DNA of 64,000 nucleotides. Origin: Comamonadaceae bacterium OH2545_COT-014 (lineage in GTDB: Bacteria; Pseudomonadota; Gammaproteobacteria; Burkholderiales; Burkholderiaceae_C). The position numbers and the translations under genes are program-made. The notes under the pieces were generated by a model. That model did no database searches, had not been told where the DNA came from, and was given only the letters and a program-made list of their open reading frames with translations. Of this stretch, positions 45,656 through 53,051 are shown piece after piece. The stretch spans positions 1-64,000 of the forward strand of contig RQYR01000001.1 in assembly GCA_003859965.1 (NCBI GenBank), written 5' to 3'. Every line of letters starts with the position of its first letter. Position 1 is the stretch's first letter.

Positions 45656-46132
45656 ATGCGCACCCACGCCCAACGCCTGTTCCTTCATCTCACCCTGGCC
45701 GTCTGCGCATTCGGCGCCGCCTTGCCCGCCGCCGCGCAGAAAGCCGCCAACGAAAGCGCCCCCGTCAAGCTCGAAAGCCTGCGCGACGGCACTCCCATCA
45801 CCGAAACCAAGCCGATCAACCCGGCCCGGCAAGAGCGCGACTCCGGCCCGCTGGACCGCGACTTCGTGCAGCAACCCCCGCTGATCCCGCACACCATCAA
45901 CGGCTACCAGATCACCAAGAACTTCAACAAGTGCATGGACTGCCACTCCTTCCAGCGCGCCAAGAGCAGCGGCGCCACCCGCGTCAGCGTCACCCACTTC
46001 CGCACGCGCGAAGGCCAGGAGCTGGACAACATCAGCCCCCGCCGCTACTTCTGCACGCAGTGCCACGTGCCGCAAACCGACGCCAAGCCCCTGATGGGCA
46101 ACACCTTCCAGCGTGCACGCGGCATGCAGTGA
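45656..46132 (+). CDS. napB: NapB, dihaem cytochrome c subunit
   Basis: The 158-residue periplasmic electron donor to NapA has a signal peptide (cleavage near LPAAAQ) and two haem-binding motifs, CMDCH (near residue 94) and CTQCH (near 134). PPLIPHTINGYQITKNFNKC is a typical NapB stretch. The ATG lies 2 bp after the napH stop. Confidence 0.96.
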   Translation: MRTHAQRLFLHLTLAVCAFGAALPAAAQKAANESAPVKLESLRDGTPITETKPINPARQERDSGPLDRDFVQQPPLIPHTINGYQITKNFNKCMDCHSFQRAKSSGATRVSVTHFRTREGQELDNISPRRYFCTQCHVPQTDAKPLMGNTFQRARGMQ

Positions 46133-46149
46133 AGCGGGAGGGCTGACAC

Positions 46150-46806
46150 ATGAGCGACAACCGCAGCGAGAAAAAAGGCCTCATCGCCAGCGCCTGGGCC
46201 TTCATGCGCACCAAGAAATTCATCGTGCTCGCCAGCGCCTTCGTGGGCGGCGTGCTGTTCTGGGGCGCCTTCAACACCGCGCTGGAATGGACCAACCGCG
46301 AAGAGTTCTGCATCTCCTGCCACGAGATGTACGACAACGTGTACGTGGAATACCGCAACACCATCCACTACCAGAACCGCACCGGCGTGCGCGCCACCTG
46401 CCCCGACTGCCACGTACCCAAGGAATGGGTGCCCAAGATGATCCGCAAGGTGCAGGCCAGCAAGGAGCTGTGGCACAAGATGCTGGGCAGCATCGACACG
46501 CCCGAGAAATACAACGCCAAGCGCGGCCAGCTCGCCGCCAACGAATGGGCGCGCATGAAGCGCAACAACAGCCAGGAATGCCGCAACTGCCACCACTTCG
46601 ACTTCATGGACTACGCCGAGCAAAACCGCCGCAGCGCCGCCACCCACCAGGCCGCCTTCAGCGCCGGCATGACCTGCATCGACTGCCACAAGGGCATCGC
46701 CCACACGCTGCCGCCCATTGAGCAGCACATCGGCGCCCCCAAGGCCGACCCGGCTGACCTGGGCAAGCCCGAAGTACAGCCTGAAGAAGCCGCCACCGGC
46801 AACTGA
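46150..46806 (+). CDS. napC: NapC, tetrahaem cytochrome c quinol dehydrogenase
   Basis: The 218-residue NapC/NirT protein is anchored by one N-terminal helix (KFIVLASAFVGGVLFWGAFNTAL). Four haem motifs, CISCH, CPDCH, CRNCH and CIDCH, are present in the usual spacing. It passes quinol electrons to NapB. It ends the cluster napDAGHBC, which has no napF, napE or napK. Confidence 0.97.
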   Translation: MSDNRSEKKGLIASAWAFMRTKKFIVLASAFVGGVLFWGAFNTALEWTNREEFCISCHEMYDNVYVEYRNTIHYQNRTGVRATCPDCHVPKEWVPKMIRKVQASKELWHKMLGSIDTPEKYNAKRGQLAANEWARMKRNNSQECRNCHHFDFMDYAEQNRRSAATHQAAFSAGMTCIDCHKGIAHTLPPIEQHIGAPKADPADLGKPEVQPEEAATGN

Positions 46807-46962
46807 AAAAGCCGCCCGGCCCACTGGCCTGTCCTGCAGGTCATTGCCCGCGCCAGCCGCATCACCCCAGCCCCTCTGGCTGGGGTTTTGCTTTTCAGCA
46901 AGGCATGCACCACACCGCCACCACCAGCCACGCCAATTCAAACCATCAAAAAAATAGCAACC

Positions 46963-46992
46963 CAGGCCGTAGATACGGCCTGAAAGCGCTTT
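46963..46992 (+). terminator. ATAGC-type terminator between napC and the folM-folB gene
   Basis: CAGGCCGT (46963-46970) and ACGGCCTG (46975-46982) form an 8-bp stem with loop AGAT, followed by AAAGCGCTTTT. An A-run with ATAGC precedes it. It probably ends the nap transcript. Confidence 0.6.
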
Positions 46993-47082
46993 TCACCCTC
47001 ATCGTTTTCAATAGGAGCCGCGGCAAACCCATATCGCCCTTGCAGCCCACCCCCGCACAGGCCGGCGCCGGCCCGCCTTGCA

Positions 47083-47088
47083 GACAAT
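47083..47088 (+). promoter_or_regulatory. -10-like box of a leaderless start (folM-folB)
   Basis: GACAAT lies 8 bases before the ATG at 47097, the same spacing as for serS and ttcA. No ribosome-binding site is seen. Confidence 0.45.
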
Positions 47089-47096
47089 ACCGCTCC

Positions 47097-48353
47097 ATGA
47101 CTGAAACCGCCCCCGTTCCTGCCGGCCCCCTGCCTGCGTCCGCCCCTCGCACCCAACCCGCCACCCGTACCGTCCTCGTCACCGGCGCGGGCAAGCGCCT
47201 GGGCCGCGCCATGGCGCTAGCGCTGGCGCAGTCAGGCTGGCAAGTGGCCGTGCACTACCACCGCTCGCGCCAGGCGGCGCTGGACACCGTGGCCGCCTGC
47301 GCCGCGCATGCCGCGTCTGCCGCCTTCCGCGCCGACTTGGCCGAAGAAGCCGCCGTGCGCGCCCTGCTGCCGCGCGTGGCCGCGCACTTCGGCCGCGTGG
47401 ACGCCGTGGTCAACAGCGCCGCGCTGTTCGAGTTCGACGACGCCGCCCGCTTCGGCCACGCCCTGCTCGACGCCCACCTGCACACCAACACCGCCGCGCC
47501 GCTGCTGCTGGCGCAGGCCCTGGCCGCGCACCTGGCCGCGCGCCGCGCGCCGCCAGCCAGCGGCTGCGTAGTCAACCTGCTGGACCAGAAGCTCTTCAAC
47601 CCCAACCCCGACTTTCTCAGCTACACCCTCAGCAAAGCCGCCCTGCACGCGGCCACCACGCTGCTGGCCCAGGCGCTGGCCCCTGCCGTGCGCGTGGTCG
47701 GCGTGGCCCCCGGCCTCACGCTCAGCAGCCATCTGATGGAAAGCGAAGCCGCCTTCGAGCGCCTGCACGCGCAAAGCCCGCTGGGCAAGTCCTCCACCCC
47801 TGAGGACGTGGCCGCCACCGTGCGCTTCGCGCTGGACAACGCCTCCATCACCGGCGCCACGCTGCTGGTGGACGGCGGCCAGCACCTGATGCGCTTCGAG
47901 CGTGATTTTTCCATGATGGAAACGGCCTCAGCGCCCGTCCCTTCTGCCCAAGCAGCTCCTTTTTTTGAAGCAGACCTTGCACCATCGCCCGCGCAGGGCG
48001 GCCAGAGCCTGACGCTGACCGGCCTGCGCTTCAACGCCAACCTGGGCATTCTGGCGCACGAAAAAACCGCGCCCCAGCCCATCCAGGTCGATGCCGAGCT
48101 GAACCTGGGCGCGCAACCGCTGCGCCCGCGCGACGACGACATCACCCACGTGCTCGACTACCGCAAGGTGCGTCAGATCATCATCGACGAATGCACGGCC
48201 GAGCACGTGAACCTGCTGGAAACGCTGATCGGCAAGCTCTGCCAGCGCCTGCTGCGCCTGCCCGGCGTGCACGGCGTGCGCGTGAAGATCACCAAGCTCG
48301 AAATCTTCGACGACTGTGAAGTCGCCATCCGCATGGAAGCCGGGCAGTGGTAA
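47097..48353 (+). CDS. FolM-type pteridine reductase (SDR) fused to dihydroneopterin aldolase (FolB)
   Basis: One 418-residue frame joins two folate enzymes. The N-terminal short-chain dehydrogenase (about 20-270) has TGAGKRLGRAMALAL, the TGxxxRxG variant of pterin reductases, VVNSAALFEFDD, and the active-site Tyr-x3-Lys in SYTLSKAALH. The C-terminal part (about 300-418) matches dihydroneopterin aldolase: LTGLRFNANLGILAHEK, THVLDYRKV, EHVNLLETLIGKLCQRLL and the final VRVKITKLEIFDDCEVAIRM with the catalytic Lys. A Pro/Ala-rich linker of about 35 residues joins them. In relatives the two are usually separate neighbouring genes. The fusion would link dihydrofolate/pterin reduction and dihydroneopterin conversion. 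Confidence 0.88.
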   Translation: MTETAPVPAGPLPASAPRTQPATRTVLVTGAGKRLGRAMALALAQSGWQVAVHYHRSRQAALDTVAACAAHAASAAFRADLAEEAAVRALLPRVAAHFGRVDAVVNSAALFEFDDAARFGHALLDAHLHTNTAAPLLLAQALAAHLAARRAPPASGCVVNLLDQKLFNPNPDFLSYTLSKAALHAATTLLAQALAPAVRVVGVAPGLTLSSHLMESEAAFERLHAQSPLGKSSTPEDVAATVRFALDNASITGATLLVDGGQHLMRFERDFSMMETASAPVPSAQAAPFFEADLAPSPAQGGQSLTLTGLRFNANLGILAHEKTAPQPIQVDAELNLGAQPLRPRDDDITHVLDYRKVRQIIIDECTAEHVNLLETLIGKLCQRLLRLPGVHGVRVKITKLEIFDDCEVAIRMEAGQW

Positions 48354-48518
48354 GTGGCTGAGGCTGGGCCGGCGCGCGTGAGCGCAGCAAAGCCGGCAGC
48401 ACCCAGTCGAGCGAGCGTGCGCCCATCAGGCCCCCTGGTAACGCTACCAACTGTTCAGGCGGCCGTTGTGGCGCTCCAATGTCTGCCTGGATGCAATGAA
48501 TTTTTCAGGGAGATGTTG

Positions 48519-49286
48519 ATGAATACCGTTGCCATGCCTTCCAGCGTTTCGGGCCCAGCACCCTACATGCCTGCGCCTGGGGATGGCGCTGGGCCGTACT
48601 GGCCCGGTGCTGCACTGCCGGCCGCCACCGGCGCCACTGCCCAGCCCCGAACAGACGCACTGGCGCAGCAAGGCCACCACCTGCTGCGTGATATGGCGCA
48701 GGCGGCGCGTGGGCCGGCTATGGCCGAGGTTGCCGCAGCGCAGGCCGAGGCAACTGCCCCGCCGCAAGAACTCAGCGGCAGGGACTGGGTGGCCCGCTTT
48801 CCCACCAGCCGCTCACTGGACGATCTGGCACCGGGCTTTCGTGAAAAAGCCACGGCCTTTGTGGACGCCATGCGGGCTGCGGGGGCCGATGTCCGCATTT
48901 CTGCCACGCACCGGCCGGCCGAGCGGGCGTACCTGATGCGCTACGCTTGGGACATTTCCAAAGGACTCATACAGCCCGACCGAGTGCCCAGCCATCCGAA
49001 CGTGCCCATCAACTGGAATCACGGAACGAAAGTCAAGTCCGTCACGGCCGCCAAGGAGATGGTCAGGGCCTACAACATCGTGCACAGGCCGGCGCTGACC
49101 TCCAACCACATACGGGGCACCGCCATCGACATGACGGTGACCGGCATCATCGGCAAGACCATGACGAACGGCACGGGCCAGCCAGTCAAGATCAAGACCA
49201 TGGAAGATTTGTACAAGGTCGGTGAATCCTATGGCGTCCTCAAGCTGCGCAGCGATCCACCCCACTGGTCGGCCGATGGCCGCTGA
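48519..49286 (+). CDS. M15-family peptidase (VanY/D,D-carboxypeptidase-like) without signal peptide
   Basis: The 255-residue protein has a Pro/Gly/Ala-rich N-terminal region (1-95) and a peptidase M15 domain (about 100-255). The zinc motif SNHIRGTAID (S195, H197, D204) matches SxHxxGxAxD, and the last ligand lies in DPPHWS (D246, H249). Such enzymes cut peptidoglycan peptide bridges. There is no signal peptide or lipobox, which is odd for a cell-wall enzyme. The ATG at 48519 follows AGGGAG. Its end overlaps the next gene, which encodes an exported protein. The pair may be a secreted effector with its immunity protein. Cell-lysis or recycling roles are alternatives. G+C seems lower than in neighbours. 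Confidence 0.75.
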   Translation: MNTVAMPSSVSGPAPYMPAPGDGAGPYWPGAALPAATGATAQPRTDALAQQGHHLLRDMAQAARGPAMAEVAAAQAEATAPPQELSGRDWVARFPTSRSLDDLAPGFREKATAFVDAMRAAGADVRISATHRPAERAYLMRYAWDISKGLIQPDRVPSHPNVPINWNHGTKVKSVTAAKEMVRAYNIVHRPALTSNHIRGTAIDMTVTGIIGKTMTNGTGQPVKIKTMEDLYKVGESYGVLKLRSDPPHWSADGR

Positions 49287-49911
49287 ACGCTTGGCCGAAT
49301 GGCTACGCCTCGCGGCGTTGGCGATGCTGCTGGCCGCCGGCATGGGCGCTGGCGCGCAAACCGCCCCGGTGCGCACAAGCGCCGAGCCGGCAGGCGTCTT
49401 GCCCGCGTCGGGCTTCGTGCTCATCACGCCCGATGGGCAGGCCCATGTGCATCTGTCCCGCCCGCTGGCAGCGGGCGAGCGCCTGTGGGTGCAATGGCCC
49501 GATCGCGCAGGCCAGCCCAGCTGCTGCCGGCGCCTGGCTGCCGATGCGCTTCAGCCCGTGAGCGCATCAGAGCAGAGCGCTGGGGACGACAAACCGCAAC
49601 ACCCCGTGGTCATGGCGCTGGATGGCAGCACGCCCGCGCACTACCGTCTGCGCGTCACCGACGAACTCGCTGGGGACAGTTTTTTGGGCATGGCGCTGGC
49701 AGCGCCGCGCGTGCGCGCCCAAGGCCCCCATGCATTGCACGCCGCGCCAGACATCCGCGTGCGCATGTGCGCAGGGGCCGAGGGCCTGAACCTGCTGACG
49801 CAAGCCGGCCAGCGGCGCCAGGCGCTTTACCTGGGCCTGGGCTATCCGATCGAGTCATCCCACCCCTGCACGCCGCAAGACGAAGACTTCATTCGCCGCG
49901 CAAGTCAGTAA
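49276..49911 (+). CDS. Exported protein of unknown function, candidate immunity partner
   Basis: The 211-residue protein has a signal peptide (RLAALAMLLAAGMGAGAQ) and a soluble domain with VLITPDGQAHVHLSRPL, WPDRAGQPSCCRRLAADAL, FLGMALAAPRVRAQGPHAL, IRVRMCAGAEGLNLLT and ALYLGLGYPIESSHPC. Four Cys (two adjacent) could form disulfides. Its ATG lies inside the peptidase gene, 11 bp overlap, so translation is coupled. No named family is recognised. Its periplasmic location and overlap fit an immunity protein. A half end of the MITE-like repeat begins at its TAA stop. Confidence 0.6.
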   Translation: MAAERLAEWLRLAALAMLLAAGMGAGAQTAPVRTSAEPAGVLPASGFVLITPDGQAHVHLSRPLAAGERLWVQWPDRAGQPSCCRRLAADALQPVSASEQSAGDDKPQHPVVMALDGSTPAHYRLRVTDELAGDSFLGMALAAPRVRAQGPHALHAAPDIRVRMCAGAEGLNLLTQAGQRRQALYLGLGYPIESSHPCTPQDEDFIRRASQ

Positions 49912-49925
49912 GAACCTGTTCAAAG
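49911..49925 (+). repeat. Solo end of the MITE-like repeat
   Basis: AGAACCTGTTCAAAG matches the left end of copies A-F, but no core or right end follows. It overlaps by one base the TAA stop of the exported protein gene. Confidence 0.7.
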
Positions 49926-49952
49926 GCTGAACGTGTGCTGGAAAGCGCCGCC

Positions 49953-50492
49953 TCAGCCGGGGGCTGGCACCAGGCGCGGGATGCGCGCGCGGCAGTTGGG
50001 GTAGGCCTGCTGCACCTTCACCTCGATCAGGCGCGCGGCCGAAGGCCAGTCCTGCCAATAGTCGCCCACTTCGTCGATCACGCGCGCCGTGCCGTTGATG
50101 CGCACGCGCGTGGCGCTGGCAAAGTCGATGAACAGCATGCCGATGCGCGGGTTGGTCAACAAGTTGCCGATGCTGTTGAAGAAGTTGTTGCCGGGGTAGT
50201 CGGGGAAGACGATGGTGCGCTCATCGGGCACGGCGAGCAGCGGCTCCGGGTCGTTTGGCGGGGCGTGCTGGCGGCCCCGGTAGCTGCAATCGCAATCGCC
50301 GCGGTCATTGGCGGTGGCGATGAAGAAAAAGGGCTGGGCCCGCAGAAACGCGATCAGGCGCGGGTTGAGCCGGTCGCGCACCGAGGCGGCCAGCCCGCGC
50401 GTCAGACGCGCGACGCCATAGCGCTGATGGGCTTGCAGCTCGCCGGGGTGAAAAACGCCGAAGCCGGGGTCGTCAGGATCTGCATCATTCAT
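49953..50492 (-). CDS. PPOX-fold flavoprotein (pyridoxamine 5'-phosphate oxidase-like)
   Basis: The 179-residue protein belongs to the split-barrel PPOX family that binds FMN, F420 or haem. Motifs: FIATANDRGDCDCSYRGRQ (FMN phosphate region), VFPDYPGNNFFNSIGNLLTNPRIGMLFIDF, VRINGTARVI and a C-terminal VQQAYPNCRARIPRL. It is not the vitamin B6 enzyme itself. It resembles the stand-alone group often annotated as pyridoxamine 5'-phosphate oxidase family protein. Its ATG overlaps by 4 bp the stop codon of the A/T-rich gene upstream, although its own composition is that of the host. Function unknown. Confidence 0.8.
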   Translation of the reverse strand: MNDADPDDPGFGVFHPGELQAHQRYGVARLTRGLAASVRDRLNPRLIAFLRAQPFFFIATANDRGDCDCSYRGRQHAPPNDPEPLLAVPDERTIVFPDYPGNNFFNSIGNLLTNPRIGMLFIDFASATRVRINGTARVIDEVGDYWQDWPSAARLIEVKVQQAYPNCRARIPRLVPAPG

Positions 50493-51334
50493 GATTCAAT
50501 TTGGTATGTCCAGAAATCAGACCAAAGATCACAATATTCCATACAAATTTTCTCGATCTCATCAAAGCGATCCGGCTCTATAGCTTGAGTCAAGATGACC
50601 CACAAGTCGTCTTCGTGGTCATCATCCGCAGCGGATGCGCTTTCATCCGTACTTACCCCATGAACATGGTAGTAGCCACTGTCAACATCGATACCAACAG
50701 CTCTAGTGGCTTTTCGCAGTGGTGGACTAAAGAGAATAACCTCTTCTTCAGCCACACCAAGAAGTGCCACTACCGAGTCGTAGTTGGCGTAAGCATGCTC
50801 AAGAAAATTCCTGACTCTTTTGGAAGCTTCGCTTGGATTATAGCTCTGCCGAATACTTGCAGACAGGGAAAGACTTTCACAAACATCCTCAAACAAAATA
50901 TAATGCGCATAAGCCGGATTTCCACGAAAGTAGCCTGCAGAGTCCAGCCCTGGAGTGAAGCCAAATTCATCCAAGTCATTGAGCGTAAGCAAAAAGCGAG
51001 GCGGAATCTTGCTCCCTGGCGCCAATCTCGGCTCCAACCTATGGGAAAGATGCTGAGCCATTAACAATGCATCAGTGAAGATCTGCACAATTGCATGGCG
51101 ATACTCAAGGTGAATTTTTTGCATTTTCTCGAAAGAGAATTTACCTTCACTCAATAGTTTGATTGCTTGATGGCGAGATACAGGGTGATGCTTGATCTTC
51201 TCCCTCAGTGATTCAATAAACCTCTCATTTCTCTTCCAATCCTCAATTTTGAGGCTTCTTTTAATTTCATGGATAGCCTTTTCTCTTGGGCCATTGTAAT
51301 CATCCATTTTTTTTGACGAATTGACGACTTGCAT
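50489..51334 (-). CDS. A/T-rich haem-oxygenase-like (iron-containing redox enzyme) family protein
   Basis: The 281-residue, all-alpha product stands out as A/T-rich against a very G/C-rich background, a sign of recent transfer. It resembles the haem-oxygenase-like diiron oxidase scaffold (UndA/BesC/SznF group, Haem_oxygenas_2). Helix 1 has HLEYRH (E77, H80). Next comes LNDLDEFGFTPG (E123) with AYAHYILFE (H144). The C-terminal helix region has YYHVHGVSTD and DDDHEDDLW (H223, H225, D230, D237-239, H240). A Lys/Arg-rich N-terminus (1-60) precedes the core. Its TGA overlaps the ATG of the PPOX flavoprotein. The substrate is unknown, and the metal ligands are a by-eye match. An unrelated all-alpha protein is possible. 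Confidence 0.55.
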   Translation of the reverse strand: MQVVNSSKKMDDYNGPREKAIHEIKRSLKIEDWKRNERFIESLREKIKHHPVSRHQAIKLLSEGKFSFEKMQKIHLEYRHAIVQIFTDALLMAQHLSHRLEPRLAPGSKIPPRFLLTLNDLDEFGFTPGLDSAGYFRGNPAYAHYILFEDVCESLSLSASIRQSYNPSEASKRVRNFLEHAYANYDSVVALLGVAEEEVILFSPPLRKATRAVGIDVDSGYYHVHGVSTDESASAADDDHEDDLWVILTQAIEPDRFDEIEKICMEYCDLWSDFWTYQIES

Positions 51335-51382
51335 GGATATTTACCCCCATCTAATTCTCATGAAGCTTGTGAGCCAGACACC

Positions 51383-51402
51383 TTGATACCTATTTATCAA
51401 GA
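51383..51402. promoter_or_regulatory. 20-bp palindrome, possible operator of the A/T-rich operon
   Basis: CTTGATA (51383-51389) and TATCAAG (51396-51402) are perfect 7-bp arms around CCTATT. It lies 49-68 bp upstream of the start of the haem-oxygenase-like gene. It resembles a dimeric regulator site. The spacing is too wide for FNR. Confidence 0.55.
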
Positions 51403-51483
51403 TAGTGCCCACAAAATAAACAACGGCTGCTGGGCTGCCAGATAACCGTGTATCCAACACCCAGCAAGCAAAACTGCAAGGGT

Positions 51484-53010
51484 TTAGAAGAACCCCATCG
51501 CATTGGCGTTGTAGCTCACCAGCAGGCACTTGGTCTGCTGGTAGTGCTTGAGCGCCATCTTGTGGTTCTCGCGGCCGATGCCCGATTGCTTGTAGCCGCC
51601 AAAGGCCGCGTGCGCCGGGTAGAGGTGGTAGCAGTTGGTCCACACCCGCCCGGCCTGGATGCCGCGGCCCATGCGGTAGGCGCGGGTGCCGCTGCGCGTC
51701 CACACCCCGGCGCCCAGGCCGAAGATGGTGTCGTTGGCAATGGCCAGGGCCTCTTCCTCGTCCTTGAAGGTGGTCACGGCCGCCACCGGGCCGAAGATTT
51801 CCTCCTGGAACACGCGCATGTCGTTCTGGCCGAACAGCATGGTCGGCTGCACGTAAAAGCCCTCGTTGATGCCCTCGCCGGGGCGGCTGCGGGCGCCGCC
51901 GGTGAGCACCTTGGCGCCTTCTTTCTGACCCACATCGAAGTAGCCCAGGATCTTGTCCATCTGCTGCTGCGAGGCCTGCGCGCCCACCATGGTGTTGGCA
52001 TCGAGCGGGTGGCCCAGCTTCATGGCCTGCACGCGCTTGACCGCCTTCTCGATGAAGCGCTCGTAGATCGACTCCTGCACCAGGATGCGCGAGGGGCAGG
52101 TGCAGACCTCGCCCTGGTTGAGCGCGAACATCGACAGCCCCTCCAGCGCCTTGTCCAGAAAGGCGTCGTCGTGGTCCATCACGTCGGCAAAGAAGATGTT
52201 GGGGCTCTTGCCGCCCAGCTCCACGGTGCTGGGGATGAGGTTCTCCGCCGCGCACTTGAGGATGTGCTTGCCCACCGGGGTGGAGCCGGTGAAGGCCACC
52301 TTGGCGATGCGCTTGCTGGTGGCCAGGGCGTTGCCCGCCTCCTTGCCGAAGCCGTTGACCACGTTGACCACGCCCGGCGGCAGCAAGTCACCAATCAGCT
52401 CCATCAGCAGCATGATGGAAGCGGGCGTCTGCTCGGCAGGCTTGAGCACCACGGTACAGCCTGCGGCCAGCGCCACCGGCAGCTTCCAGGCCGCCATCAA
52501 CAGCGGGAAGTTCCACGGAATGATCTGCCCGACCACGCCCACCGGCTCGTTGAAGTGGTAGGCCACGGTGTCGTGGTCGATCTCGGAAATGCCGCCTTCC
52601 TGCGCGCGCAGGCAGCCGGCGAAGTAGCGGAAGTGGTCGATCGCCAGCGGCACGTCGGCGGCCATGGTCTCGCGCAGCGGCTTGCCATTGTCGATGGTCT
52701 CGGCCACGGCCAGGCGCTGGAGGTTCTGCTCCATGCGGTCGGCAATGCGCAGCAAGGTGTTGGAGCGATCCTGCGGCGAAGTCGCAGCCCATTTCGGGAA
52801 GGCCGCGTGCGCCGCATCCAGCGCCAGCTCGATGTCCTCCGCGCCCGAGCGCGCCACCTTGCAGAACGGCTGGCCGGTGATGGGCGAGACGTTCTCGAAA
52901 TACTCGCCCTTGACTGGCGGCACCCACTTGCCGCCGATGTAGTTGTCGTAGCTGGCGCGATAGGGAAAGTCGGTGTCGATGCCCATGCGCTTGAGTTCCT
53001 TGGCGTCCAT
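51484..53010 (-). CDS. NAD-dependent aldehyde dehydrogenase (ExaC/AcoD-type)
   Basis: The 508-residue enzyme oxidises acetaldehyde or related aldehydes to acids. Motifs: [37 protein letters not shown] (catalytic Glu in the ELGG segment), [15 protein letters not shown] with the active-site Cys near residue 305, and EEIFGPV. The length and C-terminal YNANAMGFF fit the 506-residue ExaC/AcoD group. AGGAG precedes the ATG at 53010. A sigma-54 promoter and a divergent AcoR-type activator gene lie upstream, so expression is probably induced by an alcohol, acetoin or aldehyde signal. Confidence 0.94.
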
Positions 53011-53051
53011 GCGTGTCTCCTGTCGATTGGTTGAATAGGGAACCCTGGCTC

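Follow-up and report, generated by a model that had tools for sequence, protein, structure and literature searches.

A probable haem-oxygenase-like oxidase gene overlapping a PPOX flavoprotein gene by four bases: evidence for a rare and optional pairing

We analysed a 64,000-nucleotide stretch of DNA from Comamonadaceae bacterium OH2545_COT-014 (contig RQYR01000001.1, positions 1 to 64,000; "the window" below means this whole stretch), in which the gene for a predicted haem-oxygenase-like dimetal oxidase (HDO) runs directly into the gene for a PPOX (PNPOx-like) flavoprotein (Table 1). Both frames are open on the minus strand, and the TGA of the oxidase open reading frame (ORF) shares the four bases ATGA with the ATG of the PPOX gene. 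The original prediction had described an A/T-rich gene that overlaps a G/C-rich PPOX gene by 4 bp and differs in composition from its surroundings, and this description is accurate: the G+C (GC) content is 43.7% in the oxidase gene, 67.2% in the PPOX gene, and 68.2% in the window, and at third codon positions it is 42.6% in the oxidase gene vs 86.7% in the PPOX gene. Among 1264 sliding stretches of 843 bp, the GC minimum falls on the oxidase gene, and all 11 stretches below 50% GC begin between 50350 and 50850, over this gene. By eye, a Shine-Dalgarno-like GGGGG lies ahead of the oxidase ATG and no clear Shine-Dalgarno sequence lies ahead of the PPOX ATG; the layout is compatible with translational coupling of the two genes.

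Table 1 Features of the oxidase/PPOX locus in the window
Feature	Position	Strand	Details or basis
HDO-type (haem-oxygenase-like) oxidase gene	50489..51334	-	281 aa, 43.7% GC; open frame
PPOX (PNPOx-like) flavoprotein gene	49953..50492	-	179 aa; PF01243 match
ATGA stop/start overlap of oxidase and PPOX genes	50489..50492	-	sequence
Aldehyde dehydrogenase gene, upstream neighbour	51484..53022	-	PF00171, E 2.1e-159
Inverted repeat CTTGATA-N6-TATCAAG in the oxidase leader	51382..51401	.	script scan
Stretch without DNA match in G086/G263	50475..51485	.	blastn boundaries and alignment

The haem-oxygenase-like scaffold proposed for the first protein was recovered by structure prediction: the model (predicted local distance difference test, pLDDT, 77.5) contains the seven-helix haem-oxygenase-like fold, and its structure matches have CADD, HrmI, and BesC at the top and include PolF and UndA. 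The oxidase matches PF14518 (Haem_oxygenas_2) with E 5.8e-5 and 23.4 bits, short of the curated cut-off of 28.9, and 12 of 14 members of its family match this profile at E 0.01 or better; sequence searches of the PDB returned no relative and a single chance match at E 0.16. In an alignment of the window protein with 22 relatives, all 23 rows have E123, H144, E196, H225, D238, and H240, and position D237 is D or E. For the E/H/D pattern of diiron oxidases that had been read from the one sequence, all six candidates are therefore candidates without variation, while several further residues are equally invariant and E123 lies within a low-confidence stretch of the model. Counted as residue spacing only, H144 and E196 are 52 apart and E196 and H225 are 29 apart; the corresponding spacings of the MboA ligands are 54 and 29 according to the published account (PMC13185094). 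We consider a 3-His/3-carboxylate metal ligand set plausible and the protein a putative haem-oxygenase-like dimetal enzyme, probably diiron, of an uncharacterised subfamily. The second protein matches PF01243 (PNPOx_N) with E 6e-15 and 56.1 bits, above the curated cut-off of 28.1.

We compared 51 further loci with oxidase relatives (L002-L024, L055, available at greater length as L102, L058-L083, and L101), leaving duplicates such as L084-L097 uncounted; many of the 51 come from Acinetobacter and are nearly identical to one another, and little flanking sequence is available for L013 and L016. Neighbouring genes were identified with Pfam and by tblastn searches that used PPOX and TetR proteins as queries. 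The original prediction was open to refutation by oxidase homologues that never lie next to PPOX genes, and such neighbours do exist: PPOX genes from the same subfamily as that of the window occur in two of the 51 loci, adjoining the oxidase gene in a Magnetovibrio metagenome-assembled genome (MAG) and near it in the gammaproteobacterium G937. The MAG has TetR, PPOX, and oxidase genes in a row on one strand, with a PPOX 45% identical to that of the window, and G937 has oxidase, TusA-like, TetR, and PPOX genes in this order on one strand, with a PPOX 51% identical to that of the window and 58% to that of Magnetovibrio. Because two unrelated bacteria hold both families close together, the pair appears to be a genuine, if rare, enzyme module. 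In a PPOX tree computed without G937, only the G086 and G263 proteins are nearer to that of the window than the Magnetovibrio protein, although the placement of the latter is not firmly supported; the G937 PPOX served as a query for the window and L108-L137 only and not for the older loci.

At the level of genomes, 12 that bear the oxidase divide into three with a PPOX above 300 bits (window, Magnetovibrio, and G937), two with a weaker match elsewhere, and seven with none, and the 369 genomes of the class include 23 with a PPOX at E 1e-25, five of them above 180 bits; because the query alignment (A4) includes the window, Magnetovibrio, G937, and G086 rows, the high scores of these four are partly by construction. 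Since there are oxidase genomes that lack PPOX and PPOX genomes that lack the oxidase, neither gene depends on the other, though the pairing recurs. Neither the PPOX nor the TetR query matched in any of the five loci from cyanobacteria, of which one is short, and the ten ORFs beside PPOX genes at six other loci have no common partner. One of these ten, in G874, is TusA-like and stands directly after PPOX (L108 2027-2347); it and the TusA-like gene of the G937 oxidase/PPOX group (L101 6940-7230) are 47% identical. The PPOX had no match in viral contigs or phage records.

Among the fetched loci, a TetR gene is a commoner neighbour of the oxidase gene than PPOX. It lies directly upstream on the same strand in six of nine Dyella loci and is annotated beside the oxidase in Acinetobacter L017, L019, L020, L021, L023, and L024. 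The six Dyella loci with the TetR gene are also those in which an exact palindrome, AACCAAACGTTTGGTT, lies ahead of the oxidase gene, 52-59 bases from its start in the five loci measured, and in whole genomes G685, G686, and G687 this exact sequence has one site each, in every case at an oxidase gene. With two mismatches allowed, the pattern and its reversed form occur 4 vs 2, 3 vs 1, and 3 vs 0 times in these three genomes, respectively, and 0 vs 4 and 0 vs 3 times in G689 and G692; G937 has two sites, neither at the module. Looser palindromes precede the PPOX gene of G937 (3 mismatches; equalled in 1 of 2000 shuffles), the TetR-PPOX-oxidase row of Magnetovibrio (3 mismatches; 4 of 2000), and the oxidase gene of G937 (4 mismatches; 21 of 2000), counts that come from shuffles preserving letter content only, from 17 leader regions examined, and from a consensus derived from Dyella. 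The palindrome in the leader of the G937 TetR gene is not convincing (6 mismatches; 368 of 2000), and the oxidase leaders of four Acinetobacter loci have no such palindrome (5 or 6 mismatches). The window itself gave no match to three TetR queries, no site that fits the related pattern AAACNAACGTTTGNTTT with up to three mismatches, and no promoter-like match on the minus strand of 51335-51485. Its oxidase leader carries an inverted repeat with perfect 7-bp arms and a 6-bp spacer, unlike the Dyella palindrome; that this repeat acts as an operator is a guess, and it may be a chance match.

The history of the junction can be read from two genomes of the same family but another genus, G086 and G263, which encode the PPOX at 96-97% protein identity and have no oxidase; in 299 genomes of the family, the only oxidase match is the window's own. 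Homology of both genomes to the window stops near the stop codon of the aldehyde dehydrogenase gene and restarts at PPOX codon 7, and the 1011 bp of the window between these points, which span the oxidase gene with its leader and the first six PPOX codons, face 175 bp in G086 and 168 bp in G263, a spacer with a terminator hairpin as read by eye. On the simplest reading of this alignment, the oxidase gene arrived recently and replaced the spacer; strictly speaking, loss of the oxidase in G086 and G263 could also have produced the difference. Apart from the unmatched stretch, 49306-53021 is 91.6-99.2% identical to G086/G263 in 500-bp steps, whereas the regulator gene beyond it is 73-88% identical and 46000-49306 has no DNA match to them; because of this difference, the segment is probably a recombined block, and the PPOX and dehydrogenase genes in it probably also moved between genera. 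Three genomes of the window's own genus, G015, G146, and G230, yielded no PPOX match closer than a distant one (E 8.8e-12 to 1.4e-16). The aldehyde dehydrogenase gene is probably not part of the oxidase/PPOX module.

Relatives of the oxidase are scarce. With the window genome counted, they were found in 2 of 398 genomes of the phylum and in 3 of 369 of the class, one of these weak; they occur in Dyella, cyanobacteria, and the Magnetovibrio MAG (15 loci) as well as in Acinetobacter and on one Moraxella plasmid. Viral contigs gave no match to a single oxidase sequence and 26 matches, mostly Acinetobacter/Moraxella-like, to an oxidase alignment. In a tree of the 23 rows, which like the alignment omits L014, L016, L018, L022, L024, and L060-L083, the window has a long branch and clusters with Dyella (support 88/80; the window row lacks its first Met in alignments A1 and A2). 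A search of the Magnetovibrio family (1 of 18) gave no further lead, and neither did searches of three genomes each from the family and the order to which G937 belongs. In our preferred reading, the oxidase spreads horizontally. In Acinetobacter, a phage integrase gene lies near the oxidase of L023 and a release factor 3 gene near that of L019, relatives stand close to one end of many prophage contigs (L061-L083), and some records have them at three places. Damaged copies were seen in Dyella silvatica (L014; six stops in the match as read in one frame) and on the Moraxella plasmid (L022; two separated pieces with transposase genes around). A distant relative in G591 (L102 8519-9346; 33-35% identity) is followed by a hybrid synthase (L102 9387-17129) whose domains are of the AMP-ligase, ketosynthase, acyltransferase, aminotransferase, and condensation types, possibly a natural-product cluster with an HDO.

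Our working hypothesis, to which we give an even chance, is that the locus combines a mobile dimetal oxidase, frequently associated with TetR, and an optional partner from one PPOX subfamily that supplies electrons or handles the product. In this scheme, a dimetal centre formed by E123, H144, E196, H225, D237 or D238, and H240 would activate O2, and the oxidase would oxidise a small carboxylate-bearing substrate, a class suggested by known HDOs as described in a 2026 review (PMC13108848) and by the position of the G591 relative before a synthase. The PPOX, presumably with flavin mononucleotide (FMN), would return electrons to the metal centre or reduce the oxidised product. In several relatives the oxidase would be repressed by TetR and may be inducible; in the window, where the oxidase gene ended up immediately before PPOX, both are probably on one message. 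The case for a module draws on the same PPOX subfamily occurring with the oxidase in three unrelated lineages and, by analogy, on the precedent of MboA and MboB. The original interpretation is supported in part: the HDO-like fold is recovered and the pair recurs, with the PPOX as an optional partner and a recent junction in this genome.

Several observations weigh against this hypothesis, and some of them also favour the main alternative, namely that the oxidase is a stand-alone enzyme, often under TetR control, whose adjacency to PPOX here arose by accident in a single recent insertion, with the other two pairs as coincidences or loose members of a regulon. In 49 of the 51 further loci, no PPOX of the window's subfamily was found; G874, G994, and G941, three of the five class genomes with a PPOX above 180 bits, have no oxidase match; the site in G086 and G263 is free of the oxidase, and the junction in the window genome is, by sequence comparison, young. 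Moreover, the gene order differs in all three oxidase/PPOX pairs, the Magnetovibrio locus lies on a MAG contig of 10 kb that contains some N bases, and the predicted structure of the PPOX, made from two sequences, is an unusable model (pLDDT 39.8). Yet two unrelated genomes have a member of this PPOX subfamily next to the oxidase or close by, although so few class genomes score above 180 bits, the window and G937 among them as members of the query, and because of these two further pairs a neighbourhood by pure chance is weakened; we regard the stand-alone reading as a serious possibility but lean away from it.

Two further readings concern the oxidase itself. The protein could have the haem oxygenase fold without being a dimetal oxidase, either as a TenA/PqqC-like or other metal-free enzyme or as a true haem-degrading oxygenase, but the Haem_oxygenas_2 matches of most members, the top rank of CADD, HrmI, and BesC, and three His and three acidic residues invariant at HDO-like spacing make this quite improbable. 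Alternatively, the gene could be a foreign newcomer that is dead or in transit and not expressed, as its foreign composition, its occurrence in one of 299 family genomes, and the damaged copies elsewhere might suggest; against a full-length open frame with every candidate ligand kept, a Shine-Dalgarno-like sequence, and an exact join to PPOX, we find this hardly credible.

A bolder version of the oxidase/PPOX hypothesis would be an undescribed two-component oxygenase, in which an HDO with a dedicated FMN split-barrel (PPOX) redox partner is switched by TetR, is joined in some genomes by a TusA-type sulphur carrier, and moves between phyla outside antibiotic clusters; we think this unlikely as a whole. 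No description of an HDO-PPOX pair was found in titles and abstract openings, a weak negative because subscription literature was mostly not covered. If the oxidase/PPOX hypothesis is true, a regulator and a flavoprotein partner of its own would suggest a function in stress or catabolism, and the module would offer a concrete candidate for electron supply to an HDO; with the palindrome and the short gene groups of Dyella, Magnetovibrio, and G937, inducer and substrate become searchable.

Among known systems, the window PPOX has the PNPOx_N domain in common with the MSMEG_1061 family (TIGR04025), to which it scores 82.7 bits without reaching the cut-off of 170, and a profile search of the PDB gave no relative of it at E 0.01. 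On the oxidase side, about a dozen HDOs are functionally validated vs more than 10,000 sequences, as stated in the 2026 review (PMC13108848). Compared with CADD and the self-sacrificing p-aminobenzoate synthases, the window subfamily has additional residues ahead of D237 and between candidate ligands one and two, and its TetR and PPOX neighbours set it apart as well. HrmI, BesC, PolF, UndA, and FlcD are 11-16% identical to the window oxidase, and the window pair differs from them in the adjoining aldehyde dehydrogenase gene and in that there is no biosynthetic gene among its tested neighbours. MboA is part of mangotoxin biosynthesis, and its partner MboB is a flavin and Fe2S2 reductase rather than a PPOX; they nevertheless resemble the proposed pair as an HDO with a separate redox partner, the spacing of the MboA ligands being similar to that of the candidate ligands (PMC13185094), and the full reaction of MboA requires the dedicated reductase MboB (PMC13108848; PMC13185094).
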